Assembly (NCBI GenBank): GCA_003671275.1
Contig: QWPB01000007.1
Coordinates: 1 to 64,000 of the forward strand
From: Planctomycetota bacterium
GTDB lineage: Bacteria > Planctomycetota > Planctomycetia > Planctomycetales > Planctomycetaceae
DNA: 64,000 nucleotides
Reading direction: 5' to 3'
Shown here: piece by piece, positions 35,980 to 40,555 of the stretch
How positions within the stretch are numbered: the stretch's first letter is position 1
How the letters are laid out: each line of letters starts with the position of its first letter
Made by a program: the position numbers and the translations under genes
Notes under the pieces: generated by a model
The model's database searches: none
What the model was told of the DNA's origin: nothing
The model's input: only the letters and a program-made list of their open reading frames with translations

Positions 35980-36606
35980 TCAATGTTCGCCATGCCGCTG
36001 ACATTCCAACCAGCGAGGGGATCGATTGGAACGGTCGAGTTCGCTCGAAGAGACCACTCGCAGCTTGGGTATGTTGCGGAACTCATCGGGAGGTAGCCGT
36101 TGAAACCAGTCTTGGACAGCTTGCGTTTCCGCTTCGCCGCCGACATGGCCGGGGTAAGCCAGTACACTCAGTACGCCTCCAGGGGCCAGCAGTGGGAGTG
36201 AGGCGGCCAGAGCCTGCAAGGTCGCGTCGGTTCGCGTGATGAGGGTCTTGTCTCCGCCGGGTAGATAGCCCAGATTGAACAGAATGATGTCGATCGTACT
36301 ACCAAAATGTTCGAGCGGCAGCTTGTCCAGCATTTCGGCGTGGCTCGCCTGATGCAGCACGACACTGGACGGGGCCGCCTCCGAGGAACCTGGAAACGCG
36401 CCGGCTTGCCGGAGTCGATCTACGGTTCGCTCAATGGCAGTTGCCTGAATATCGAATCCCCAGATTTGGCCAGTCTTCCCGACCAGTTGGGCAAGAAATA
36501 GCGTGTCGTGGCCGTTTCCCACCGTCGCATCAATGGCCCTTAAATGGGACTGCCCCCGGAACCGGGCTTCCAGGGAATGGTGAACTTTTTGCGTGAGGGG
36601 GATCAT
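35980..36606 (-). CDS. mnmM: YtqB/MnmM-type tRNA methyltransferase
   Basis: A 208-residue class I SAM-dependent methyltransferase. The SAM-binding strand-loop is AIDATVGNGHDTLFLA with GFDIQATAI after it. LFNLGYLPGGDKTLITR and LSVLAYPGHVGGEAE are the hallmarks of the YtqB family, which methylates 5-aminomethyl-(2-thio)uridine at tRNA position 34 (MnmM). The start overlaps the stop of the upstream FAD oxidoreductase gene (ATGA at 36603-36606), pointing to a two-gene operon in the same pathway. The symbol is assigned by family resemblance. Confidence 0.82.
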   Translation of the reverse strand: MIPLTQKVHHSLEARFRGQSHLRAIDATVGNGHDTLFLAQLVGKTGQIWGFDIQATAIERTVDRLRQAGAFPGSSEAAPSSVVLHQASHAEMLDKLPLEHFGSTIDIILFNLGYLPGGDKTLITRTDATLQALAASLPLLAPGGVLSVLAYPGHVGGEAETQAVQDWFQRLPPDEFRNIPKLRVVSSSELDRSNRSPRWLECQRHGEH

Positions 36607-37682
36607 CCGCCTTGGCCTCGACGAATTGAAAAATCGACGGCGGGCTCCAGAGGTATCCCTTCGAGCAGGTGTCCCGTGAGTTGCTGGCTGAAGTAGGGAG
36701 CCAGCAGAGATCCCTTCGATCCCAGTCCATTCATGAACCCGATCGCGGGATGTTCGGGCAGGCAGCCGATCACCGGATTCAGATTCTTCAGGATGGGCCG
36801 AATGGCCGCATCGTGCCCCACCACGTGGAATGGAACAGTCAGGCTGCTCGCCAGTCGCTGTTCCAGTTCTTCCCGTCCGTGGGGAGTCGGAACTTGATCC
36901 AGTCGACTCCAGTCGTAGGTTGCCCCCACCCGATACAGGCGATCTCCGGAGGCATTCTTCATCCCCGTCGGAGCGATCCAGATCCCCCGGTGGACGATCC
37001 GCGGTTCCTCATGGCCCGGGATGGCCACGATCAGTATTTCACCTTTGGCGGGGTTCCAGGCGAAGCCTTGAAACCAGGGATTCGCATGTGCGGCGTAACC
37101 CTGGCAGAAGATCAAATGCCGTGCCCGCACTCCCCACGCTGGAAGCTCAACACCGTCGTGAATGAGCTGGACATCCTGCGGCAGTTGTAACTCTCCGGCT
37201 CGGTAACACTGCCGGGATCGCAGGTGTTCGCGTGTGACTTGCAGAAATTGTGCGACATCCAATCGGGCCGCTGGAACAAGCTCCACACCCCCGAAAGGCG
37301 CGGGCATCGACGCGGGCCAGCGATCGATCGGAGCGAACATCCCGGCGTAGCTCGGACTGGACTGCCGTTTTTCGTAACATGCCCGTTCGTTGTCATCGAC
37401 GAACAATCGGACTGCGGGCAACTCGTGAAAGAATGCCACTCCGGTCTCGATTTCAACCCACCGATAAAAGTCGCGGGCGCACGGGTAGAATTCGTCGAGC
37501 CGCCACGTTTTCACCAGCCGCTGGCCGGTGACAGGAGTGACCAGCCCCGCAGCGATTCGGGAAGCTGTCACAGACTCTTCCCGATCAATCACCAGCAGCT
37601 CGCTTCCGCGAGCCTGATGAGCCCACGCCAGACATCCACCCGCCAGTCCCAGCCCAACGAGGATTGTGTCGTAGCTGCGCAT
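36603..37682 (-). CDS. DAO-family FAD oxidoreductase
   Basis: A 359-residue flavoprotein with an N-terminal Rossmann motif (ILVGLGLAGGCLAW) and the motif ASRIAAGLVTPVTGQRLVKT, which marks a DAO subfamily related to the MnmC oxidase domain. The C-terminal part has PILKNLNPVIGCLPEHPAIG and FMNGLGSKGSLLAPYFSQQL, typical of the flavin-capping region. Coupled with the MnmM-like gene by a 4-nt overlap, it is the best candidate for oxidative removal of the carboxymethyl group from cmnm5(s2)U34. That function is inferred; other amine oxidations are possible. Confidence 0.82.
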   Translation of the reverse strand: MRSYDTILVGLGLAGGCLAWAHQARGSELLVIDREESVTASRIAAGLVTPVTGQRLVKTWRLDEFYPCARDFYRWVEIETGVAFFHELPAVRLFVDDNERACYEKRQSSPSYAGMFAPIDRWPASMPAPFGGVELVPAARLDVAQFLQVTREHLRSRQCYRAGELQLPQDVQLIHDGVELPAWGVRARHLIFCQGYAAHANPWFQGFAWNPAKGEILIVAIPGHEEPRIVHRGIWIAPTGMKNASGDRLYRVGATYDWSRLDQVPTPHGREELEQRLASSLTVPFHVVGHDAAIRPILKNLNPVIGCLPEHPAIGFMNGLGSKGSLLAPYFSQQLTGHLLEGIPLEPAVDFSIRRGQGG

Positions 37683-37725: not shown

Positions 37726-39798
37726 CTATTTCAGCAATGCTCCGCCATGCGAGTCGAGATGGTCTTTCCATCGCAACCAGGCGGGATTGCGCGTCGAGTC
37801 GGACAGGTTGGCGTGATAGTCACGATCACGTCCCGTCAGCCGCTTGATGTGGAAGATCGCCAGCTCGCGGATCGTGATATCCCGGTGCCCCAGATAATCG
37901 ACCAGTTTCCGGCTGATCTCTGGATCGTGGGCATCCCGTTCCGAATATCCCCATAGCAGGGCGACCACCGCGGCCACATCTTCGTCTGGGAAGAGGCGAC
38001 GGACTTCCTGTTCCAGCACCGCAGCATTCTCCGGGGCCACCGGCAGCCATGTTCGCAGCGTGTAGATCGCCGCCAGCCGGGTTTCTTCATTCTTCGACTG
38101 GAGTCCTCGCACGACGGAGGGGATGTCGTCCACCAGCCCAACCGTGTAGGTCGCCAGCTCGGAGATTCGAGCGATATCATGCGTCACGAGAGCAGGCATC
38201 GAAACACTGACCGGTTGATCGAGCGCAAACTCCTGCTCGAAACGGTCGCTCATCCGCCGGGCAGCCAGCGTGACAGCAATTCCGTCGAGAGACATCCAGA
38301 CAGGCAGACTGTGGGCGGGGCCCACCACGAAGGGTTCTCGATGGACTGGCCAGGCGGCCCAGCCGACATCGGCCCCGACTGCAATCGCAGGACCGCCCTG
38401 CCAGGACACGGCCACCGAACCGGTGGCCACGGAGAGCCCACCTTCGGGGTAGTTCAACTGCGGATCTGGCCCCGTGCCATGCGGCGAGCGTAACCCCACC
38501 TCCAAGCCACAGCGTGTCGCGGGATCCAGACTGAGCTCCACGGTTCGTCCGCGAACATCGACATGCACCACAACCGGTTGATTCTCCACCCCGGCTGGTC
38601 GCGTGAGGGCGATTCGTCCGCGATCCAGTTTCAAGGACAACAGCTGTGTCTCGGTTCCGCGACTGAATTGGAGGCGTGTTCCGCCAAAGAGAGTAATCGC
38701 CAGTTCCTGGCCATCAATCTGCAGTTGAGCTTCGAACGGCTCGGGGCAGGCAATCTCGTCACCGGCGTGCAGCAGAGTACGACGAGGCATGACGATCCAC
38801 TGTTGCTCTGCCGGGTTATGGATCAGCAGCACTCCCGTGGGCGTGCCATACAACACCTCCGGGAACGTGACCGGGGCGGGAGCCTCCGCAGCGGGGGCGG
38901 GTTGCGGGGCAAGGCCCACCACTTCGGGGACCGCGACATTCGGTAGCGTGGGCTCAGGGGCGGGTTCCACCGGGGCCGGTTCGGCGGGCATCTCGACCGG
39001 CACTGTGGGAGTGATGGTAGTCAGCGGGCCCCCTGTGCTGTCGGGGGGGCCGCTAGCGGCATTTGGTGCGGTCGCGGGCACCACGGGTGGTCGCGGTTTG
39101 GCCGATGTGGCGTCCGTGGTACCCGCTTCGGGCGACGCTATCTCGGGAGTGTCATTGGATGCCACTAGTCCGCCGGATGGCTCACCGAGGAAACCCTGCT
39201 CCTTCAAAACCCAGACCATCCAGCCCCCGCCCAGGACAATGACCAGCAGTCCTACCAGCAGTGATTTCCCGCCGGATGGCTTGAGATAGTCTGGCGTCAT
39301 GGGTGGCGGAGGAACTGGACTGACCATGGCCCGGATCGGCCCGGAAGGCGCCTCGGTTGTCGGGGACAGGACGGGGGCGGTGGTGGTCACGGGGGCCGGT
39401 TCCACCGGGGGGGGCGGCATGACCAGAGCGTACATTCGCTCACGGGTCGTTGTTGGAACTTCCACTGGCTCCCCAAGGACAGCTGTCAGGATCTGATGAG
39501 CCGACGCGACTTCCGCCAGATGCATGTCGGAGTCGAGATACATCTTCTCCAAGGCCGGAACGGTCTGCGGGTCGAGCGTATTGTCGAGATATTCCGCAAC
39601 CAGATTCGGGTCCGGAGCCGAGCCGGAACCGGTCAGTTCGGGGGCCGCGATCCGGCGACGGCGGACAATCTCACGAATGCGAGCCACGGTGGACGAAGCC
39701 TGGGGACTTTCGCTGATCCGGGCTCCCAGTTCGCGCAGGGCTTTGGGCTCCAGTACGTCATCCAGGTATGCCAGCAAGGCTCGCAGTGTCAGTCGCAT
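37726..39798 (-). CDS. membrane-anchored FecR-like / HEAT-type protein
   Basis: A protein of about 690 residues, not assigned to a named family. The N-terminal part (LRALLAYLDDVLEPKALREL and VAEYLDNTLDPQTVPALEKM) has two anti-sigma/zinc-finger-like helical repeats without the usual cysteines. One membrane helix follows (SLLVGLLVIVLGGGWMVWVL), then a Pro/Ala-rich linker, a FecR-like beta domain (LLHAGDEIACPEPFEAQLQI) and C-terminal HEAT-like helices (NEETRLAAIYTLRTWLPVAP). Starts at 39798; 39813 is possible. Topology suggests a cytoplasmic N-terminus and a periplasmic rest. Confidence 0.75.
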   Translation of the reverse strand: MRLTLRALLAYLDDVLEPKALRELGARISESPQASSTVARIREIVRRRRIAAPELTGSGSAPDPNLVAEYLDNTLDPQTVPALEKMYLDSDMHLAEVASAHQILTAVLGEPVEVPTTTRERMYALVMPPPPVEPAPVTTTAPVLSPTTEAPSGPIRAMVSPVPPPPMTPDYLKPSGGKSLLVGLLVIVLGGGWMVWVLKEQGFLGEPSGGLVASNDTPEIASPEAGTTDATSAKPRPPVVPATAPNAASGPPDSTGGPLTTITPTVPVEMPAEPAPVEPAPEPTLPNVAVPEVVGLAPQPAPAAEAPAPVTFPEVLYGTPTGVLLIHNPAEQQWIVMPRRTLLHAGDEIACPEPFEAQLQIDGQELAITLFGGTRLQFSRGTETQLLSLKLDRGRIALTRPAGVENQPVVVHVDVRGRTVELSLDPATRCGLEVGLRSPHGTGPDPQLNYPEGGLSVATGSVAVSWQGGPAIAVGADVGWAAWPVHREPFVVGPAHSLPVWMSLDGIAVTLAARRMSDRFEQEFALDQPVSVSMPALVTHDIARISELATYTVGLVDDIPSVVRGLQSKNEETRLAAIYTLRTWLPVAPENAAVLEQEVRRLFPDEDVAAVVALLWGYSERDAHDPEISRKLVDYLGHRDITIRELAIFHIKRLTGRDRDYHANLSDSTRNPAWLRWKDHLDSHGGALLK

Positions 39799-40042
39799 GG
39801 CTATCAATCCCATATGGGGTCACCTGGTTCATTGTCCTCGGTGAGAACACTTCACAGGCTGCTACATTCAGGAGTGCCCTGTGGCCGGGGATTTCGTACA
39901 ACGAATTTTGATTCCTCTCCCGAAAGACCGAATTTCCTGCCATACCGATCCGTTTTTCTTCGCATTTCGATCCGCCTGCGGCACTCCTTACCCCGTTCAA
40001 CCACTGGGAAGATTCTCGGTCGAATGCCAGAATACGGGGACG

Positions 40043-40555
40043 ATGTCCCTGCCTCCGACGATTATTGTGGTTCACCCCTCCGAAAAACGCAGCAAATGCT
40101 CGGTCGAGCCGTTGCGGACCCGCCCGGAGTTCATTTTCTGGAACTACCCCCGGCGCGGGACAGAATCGCTGCAAGGCTATGTCCGTCTGGGCATCGGAGG
40201 ACCCGAGCTGACCCCCGCCGATCAGGCGACAGGGCTGGTGCTGCTCGATGGCTCCTGGCGCTGGGCAGCCAAGATGGAGCAGTCCTACGAGGATCTGCCC
40301 GTGAGGAGCCTGGCCCCATGGGTCACAGCCTACCCCCGGGTTTCCAAAGTCTTTCAGGATCCCAGTGGCGGGCTGGCCACGATCGAGGCCCTGTTTGCGG
40401 CGCATGCCCAGATGGGGCGCCCCGTCGAAGGGCTTTTGGATGACTATCGATGGCGCGATCAGTTCCTAGATGCGAATCGAGAGCTTTTAACTCGGTTCGG
40501 GACGCGGTACTCTGTAGGTGATACGCTGCGCGGGAGGTTCGATCGATCTGAGTGA
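40043..40555 (+). CDS. Tsr3/DTW-superfamily (TDD) protein
   Basis: A 170-residue protein resembling the aminocarboxypropyltransferase superfamily that includes Tsr3 (18S rRNA) and DTW proteins such as TapT (tRNA acp3U47). [19 protein letters not shown] recalls the Tsr3 start, with [20 protein letters not shown] matching the SPAD...IDCSW region and [14 protein letters not shown] the conserved TxEA helix. Cysteines around position 15-20 partly match Tsr3. The frame is open from 39881, but the ATG at 40043 begins the conserved part. Product inferred, not certain; SAM-dependent acp transfer to RNA is the likely chemistry. Confidence 0.65.

Follow-up and report, generated by a model that had tools for sequence, protein, structure and literature searches.

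Two overlapping genes in a planctomycete genome, one encoding a DAO-type FAD oxidoreductase and the other the methyltransferase MnmM, very probably (we put it at roughly 85%) supply the last two steps of wobble-uridine modification, with the oxidoreductase predicted to convert cmnm5 to nm5 and MnmM then converting nm5 to mnm5. We infer both reactions, and their order, from gene content, co-inheritance, fusion, fold and conserved residues. The window, by which we mean the whole 64,000-nucleotide stretch that was analysed, contains the following features of the pair and its upstream neighbour:

35980-36606, minus strand: MnmM (YtqB), predicted SAM-dependent nm5(s2)U34 methyltransferase, 208 aa; intact ORF, second gene of the pair
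36145..36156, minus strand: MnmM motif YPGH (residues 151-154); Y151 and H154 are equivalent to B. subtilis Y141 and H144
36247..36276, minus strand: MnmM motif NLGYLPGGDK (residues 111-120); N111, Y114 and K120 are equivalent to B. subtilis N101, Y104 and K110
36505..36531, minus strand: MnmM motif DATVGNGHD (residues 26-34); SAM site and Asp34, the equivalent of B. subtilis D34
36603-36606, minus strand: 4-nt start/stop overlap of the pair, TCAT on the plus strand and ATGA on the minus strand
36603-37682, minus strand: DAO-type FAD oxidoreductase, 359 aa; intact ORF, first gene of the pair, proposed cmnm5(s2)U34 oxidase
36711..36731, minus strand: oxidoreductase motif NGLGSKG (residues 318-324); aligns with MnmC 'ALGSRG', G324 with MnmC G619
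36798..36800, minus strand: Arg295 of the oxidoreductase; invariant in 82 relatives, aligns with MnmC Arg567
37638..37655, minus strand: GLGLAG dinucleotide-binding motif of the oxidoreductase (residues 10-15); G10, G12 and G15 invariant in 82 relatives
37726-39813, minus strand: 695-aa protein, HEAT-like at one end, without an NCBIfam match; upstream neighbour of the pair across a 43-base gap

Both reading frames are intact and share 36603-36606, as the sequence-only reading of this DNA had described. The same 4-nt overlap occurs in two related loci (L024 and L037), and translation of the oxidoreductase and MnmM is likely to be coupled through its ATGA. The pair may be co-transcribed with the gene for the HEAT-repeat-like protein, which lies upstream across a gap of 43 bases; 176 bases downstream, the same strand encodes a 391-aa squalene-cyclase-like repeat protein. 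Neither of these two neighbours has an evident tie to tRNA. On the plus strand, 2.2 kb from the pair (39881-40555), lies a gene whose 224-aa product weakly matches DTW-domain and Tsr3/DUF367-like families (27 bits for each, under the Pfam cut-offs) and is possibly an aminocarboxypropyltransferase of RNA.

In the mechanism that we propose, MnmE and MnmG, whose genes are present and whose activity is presumed, would place cmnm5 on U34. The oxidoreductase, with FAD, would then oxidize cmnm5(s2)U34 at its glycine-like N-carboxymethyl arm, giving an imine, as its fold, conserved Arg and genomic context suggest, and hydrolysis of the imine would yield nm5(s2)U34 and glyoxylate. Finally, MnmM would use SAM to convert nm5(s2)U34 to mnm5(s2)U34, a prediction based on its equivalog match and conserved catalytic residues.

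The identification of the 208-aa protein as MnmM, a predicted nm5(s2)U34 methyltransferase, is sound because it passes the curated equivalog cut-off (163.4 bits against NF053511, tRNA_U34_MnmM, with a cut-off of 135) and conserves most of the essential residues; PF06962 matches it as well. Mutating K11, D34, N101, Y104, K110, Y141 or H144 of B. subtilis MnmM nearly abolishes activity (PMC9976899). Comparison with structure 8h0s indicated that six of these seven residues are identical in the window's protein (D34, N111, Y114, K120, Y151 and H154, corresponding to B. subtilis D34, N101, Y104, K110, Y141 and H144), and that the residues contacting U33 and U34 are retained, K11 excepted. The residue equivalent to K11 is His9, and structure 3eey likewise has a His; this replacement counts against the proposed mechanism. 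The protein resembles the MnmM of B. subtilis, S. aureus and plants (PMC9976899) in its equivalog score and in these six residues, and differs from it at His9 and in having a flavoprotein as its partner gene. The authors who described MnmM sought an oxidoreductase-methyltransferase operon or fusion in Gram-positives and found none (PMC9976899).

The sequence-only reading had proposed a genome search for mnmE, mnmG and mnmC, holding that a complete mnmC elsewhere would speak against it. The genome is 5.03 Mb in size and 99.2% complete, and the search recovered MnmE and MnmG and no MnmC. MnmE is full length and is best named MnmE though it scores under the cut-offs, while MnmG is over its cut-off in two pieces (G000:C1:16-1287 and G000:C122:11-568), a split over two contig ends that is an assembly break and not a broken gene. 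No match to PF05430, the MnmC methyltransferase domain, and no MnmC(o)/MnmC_Cterm match over the cut-off was found in the genome, where the two best weak MnmC_Cterm matches are a true ThiO (273.1 bits, TIGR02352 cut-off 250.8) and LhgO; an MnmC within the genome was therefore rejected as an explanation. The radical-SAM proteins YtqA and MnmL, which we take to be one protein, belong to TIGR01212, and no member of that family scores over its cut-off in the genome (best 46.4 bits versus 180). YtqA is cited for mnm5s2U synthesis, and MnmL appears under the cmnm5-to-nm5 stage, alongside MnmM (Jaroch 2024 via PMC12548931, PMC12245174). The flavoprotein would act at the same stage and with the same partner as YtqA/MnmL but is unrelated to it.

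The oxidoreductase matches Pfam DAO (PF01266, E 1.3e-15) and passes no curated equivalog cut-off, falling far below those of both the ThiO model TIGR02352 (44.2 bits, cut-off 250.8) and the MnmC_Cterm/MnmC(o) model TIGR03197 (31.1 bits, cut-off 174.2). All 82 collected relatives, a diverse family with identities of about 35-50%, match both models at E <=0.001 with about equal best scores (the best E for MnmC_Cterm is 7.7e-31). With hhalign, the window's protein scores better against the genome's own ThiO than against E. coli MnmC(o). Because its whole-sequence score is nearer to ThiO than to MnmC, we do not claim that it belongs to the MnmC(o) family, and its failure to be placed there by sequence alone counts against the proposed mechanism. 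An attempt to place the family among DAO enzymes by tree failed, as single ThiO, MnmC and LhgO rows formed very long branches.

A high-confidence AlphaFold2 model built from the 82-row alignment (mean pLDDT 96.6) has as its top structural matches CmiS2 and ThiO glycine oxidases (Z about 34-36), followed by MnmC (3ps9, 3awi, 3pvc and 3sgl; Z 32.6-33.4 over 340-342 residues, rmsd 3.2-3.5) and the iminodiacetate oxidase IdaA (Z 32.5). Sarcosine oxidases share the fold too (Z about 31), and the fold therefore speaks to the class of chemistry and not to the substrate. From an N-carboxymethyl amine, CmiS2 produces the amine and glyoxylate through an imine (PMC11284099), and the cmnm5-to-nm5 chemistry proposed for the MnmC oxidase also proceeds via an imine (PMC3648344). 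CmiS2 and IdaA are thus among the closest folds, and the chemistry of CmiS2 is that proposed here; both act on small-molecule substrates, with no methyltransferase partner noted. In the dinucleotide-binding motif, the residues of E. coli MnmC aligned with G10 and G12 are G271 and G273, and the genome's ThiO has 'GHFRTG' where the oxidoreductase has NGLGSKG. Arg295 aligns with what we take to be the Arg that binds the carboxylate in glycine oxidase ThiO, an enzyme that has the FAD motif in common with the oxidoreductase too. The MnmC positions that are >98% conserved are G271, G273, G287, G518, R567, G578, G619 and R653 (PMC3648344), and hhalign matched all of them in the oxidoreductase except R653, which falls outside the alignment; several are common to ThiO. 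Net charge was rejected as a means of singling out RNA binding, the charge of the oxidoreductase not being distinctive.

These comparisons bear on the possibility that the oxidoreductase is a ThiO-like enzyme that oxidizes glycine or another amino acid in small-molecule metabolism and has no tie to MnmM beyond a common operon, which would account for the shared ThiO fold (Z about 35), for the greater hhalign similarity to ThiO than to MnmC, and for the 25 class genomes (described below) that have the oxidoreductase and no MnmM. The genome, however, already encodes a true ThiO over the cut-off, the oxidoreductase reaches 44 of 250.8 bits, and neither repeated fusion to MnmM, strict co-inheritance within the family nor non-overlap with YtqA is expected of a ThiO duplicate; we consider this explanation very unlikely.

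Our best reading is that the pair works like MnmC without being a member of MnmC, and represents a second, independent MnmC-like solution. As in bifunctional MnmC of E. coli and Y. pestis (PMC3648344), a glycine-oxidase-fold FAD oxidase and a SAM methyltransferase would together perform the last two steps to mnm5(s2)U34, R295 aligns with the conserved R567, and six conserved glycines match. In MnmC, the methyltransferase is a PF05430 domain fused N-terminal to the oxidase, whereas here it is MnmM (PF06962), encoded downstream by a separate gene, and in relatives the fused proteins run from oxidase to methyltransferase, the reverse order. The oxidase also differs in scoring under the MnmC_Cterm cut-off, as a separate DAO subfamily.

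To determine how widely the oxidoreductase occurs, we scanned 84,980 species, each represented by one genome, disregarding neighbouring genes, and kept 80 loci, which come from Planctomycetota, Hyphomicrobiales, Verrucomicrobiota, two Bacteroidota and one Acidobacteria genome. MnmM is present within the locus in 52 of the 80, and in 13 loci, including that from Acidobacteria (L080), a single ORF of 531-653 aa encodes both proteins, the oxidoreductase preceding MnmM; the fusion in L057, for example, has 570 aa. On the tree, the distribution of fused and non-fused forms requires 5 changes, at least 3 of them forced by well-supported branches. The fusions are independent of MnmC, since their domain order is reversed and their methyltransferase belongs to another family. 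The separate, non-fused arrangement described by the sequence-only reading is therefore one form among others of a pair that is widespread and in relatives often fused. Our literature search found no report of the pair or fusion, and one may exist elsewhere.

The two genes are also inherited together. Among 119 genomes of the phylum, MnmM is found in 7 and the oxidoreductase in 4, all of which are within those 7 and in the window's family. Across the class (249 genomes), both genes are present in 67, the oxidoreductase only in 25, MnmM only in 16 and neither in 141 (Fisher p about 2e-24 for the presence correlation, ignoring kinship), and within the window's family 50 have both, 18 neither and none a single gene. 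Where both are present in the class, they are adjacent in 37 genomes, fused into one ORF in 22, far apart on the same contig in 4 and on different contigs in 4; the unlinked but co-inherited pairs (e.g. G022) indicate that linkage alone is not the cause of co-inheritance. Because 52 of the 80 loci hold MnmM and the presence correlation over the 249 genomes is strong, the pairing is not a matter of chance.

The 25 class genomes without MnmM count against the proposed mechanism, as do the 16 with MnmM only, all of which belong to one family (f63). No DAO gene was found near MnmM in the neighbourhoods of eight f63 genomes, and in the f63 loci read (L135-L142) MnmM has no consistent neighbour. A 585-aa ORF in L135 has no recognised N-terminal domain and is probably an over-long reading frame. 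Genomes of this kind would be expected if MnmEG made nm5U directly from ammonium, such that MnmM needed no oxidase and the oxidoreductase were an accessory or cleared a minority cmnm5 product, and E. coli MnmEG can use ammonium or glycine (PMC9976899; PMC3936742). That neither gene is ever found without the other in the window's family (50 both, 0 oxidoreductase only, 0 MnmM only, 18 neither) suggests interdependence instead, and two of the three planctomycetes checked that have MnmM without the oxidoreductase (G015 and G052) carry a YtqA-type alternative, TIGR01212, the third (G046) being 86% complete; this explanation seems to us quite improbable. TIGR01212 was found in none of 20 sampled genomes that carry the oxidoreductase. 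Its absence says more than its presence, which alone is no proof of an MnmL role because E. coli and other genomes without MnmM match too.

Together, co-occurrence, the operon, repeated fusion, non-overlap with the radical-SAM protein and the fold of an N-carboxymethyl-amine oxidase argue for the oxidoreductase as the cmnm5-to-nm5 step. The sequence-only reading had called it the missing first step, a role that this evidence supports; the step is not wholly missing, as YtqA is cited for it in Gram-positives.

In 28 genomes from the scan the oxidoreductase is unlinked to MnmM in its locus. Eight of these (Verrucomicrobia) encode MnmM elsewhere, one has two MnmM pieces, and both Bacteroidota genomes carry PF05430, the other nm5U methyltransferase family, instead of MnmM. 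The main caveat to the proposed mechanism is that 17 of the 28 have neither MnmM nor a PF05430 methyltransferase, and PF05430 was not seen among the neighbours read for the 28 oxidoreductases. Genomes of Gemmata/Isosphaera type (L040, L041, L042, L044, L050, L053 and others) have the oxidoreductase without MnmM or PF05430; in them, either nm5(s2)U is the end product or a further methyltransferase has gone unrecognised. The excess of oxidoreductase-only genomes fits an upstream step with nm5(s2)U perhaps final in some lineages, but leaves room for another role. A further possibility, in which the lineage's MnmM has drifted and the oxidoreductase prepares a different N-alkyl substrate on RNA, would suit a fold and Arg that say only 'amine with a carboxylate', a diverse family and the replacement of K11, but MnmM passes its equivalog cut-off and keeps its other U33/U34-contacting residues and the oxidoreductase also co-occurs with PF05430 nm5U methyltransferases, making this highly improbable.

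In Rhabdobacter and Telluribacter (L100 and L113), the oxidoreductase gene is directly downstream of that for cytidylate kinase and the PF05430 methyltransferase is encoded elsewhere. According to the 2023 MnmM paper, the enzyme doing the work of MnmC(o) in organisms with MnmM was unknown, and no oxidase was known for Bacteroidetes and alpha-proteobacteria whose MnmC methyltransferase is an orphan (PMC9976899); in Bacteroidota, the oxidoreductase of these two genera is a candidate for that oxidase. The radical-SAM answer that came later applies to Gram-positives; for planctomycetes, Verrucomicrobiota, some Hyphomicrobiales and perhaps Bacteroidota, the oxidoreductase family offers a flavoprotein candidate. 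We lean towards the broader view that it is a distinct FAD oxidase family providing a third cmnm5U34-to-nm5U34 route besides MnmC(o) and radical-SAM YtqA/MnmL, one that is paired with MnmM or an orphan Bacteroidota PF05430 protein, has been fused to MnmM more than once as an MnmC in reversed order, and in many Gemmata/Isosphaera-type genomes has no known methyltransferase, nm5(s2)U perhaps being final there. The double enzyme MnmC thus seems to have arisen twice in bacteria, the second time with another methyltransferase, and the natural bifunctional fusion makes a single-protein test possible. One oxidoreductase, from a record titled Akkermansia muciniphila (L079), groups with Hyphomicrobiales in the tree, and the record is probably a mislabelled metagenome assembly.
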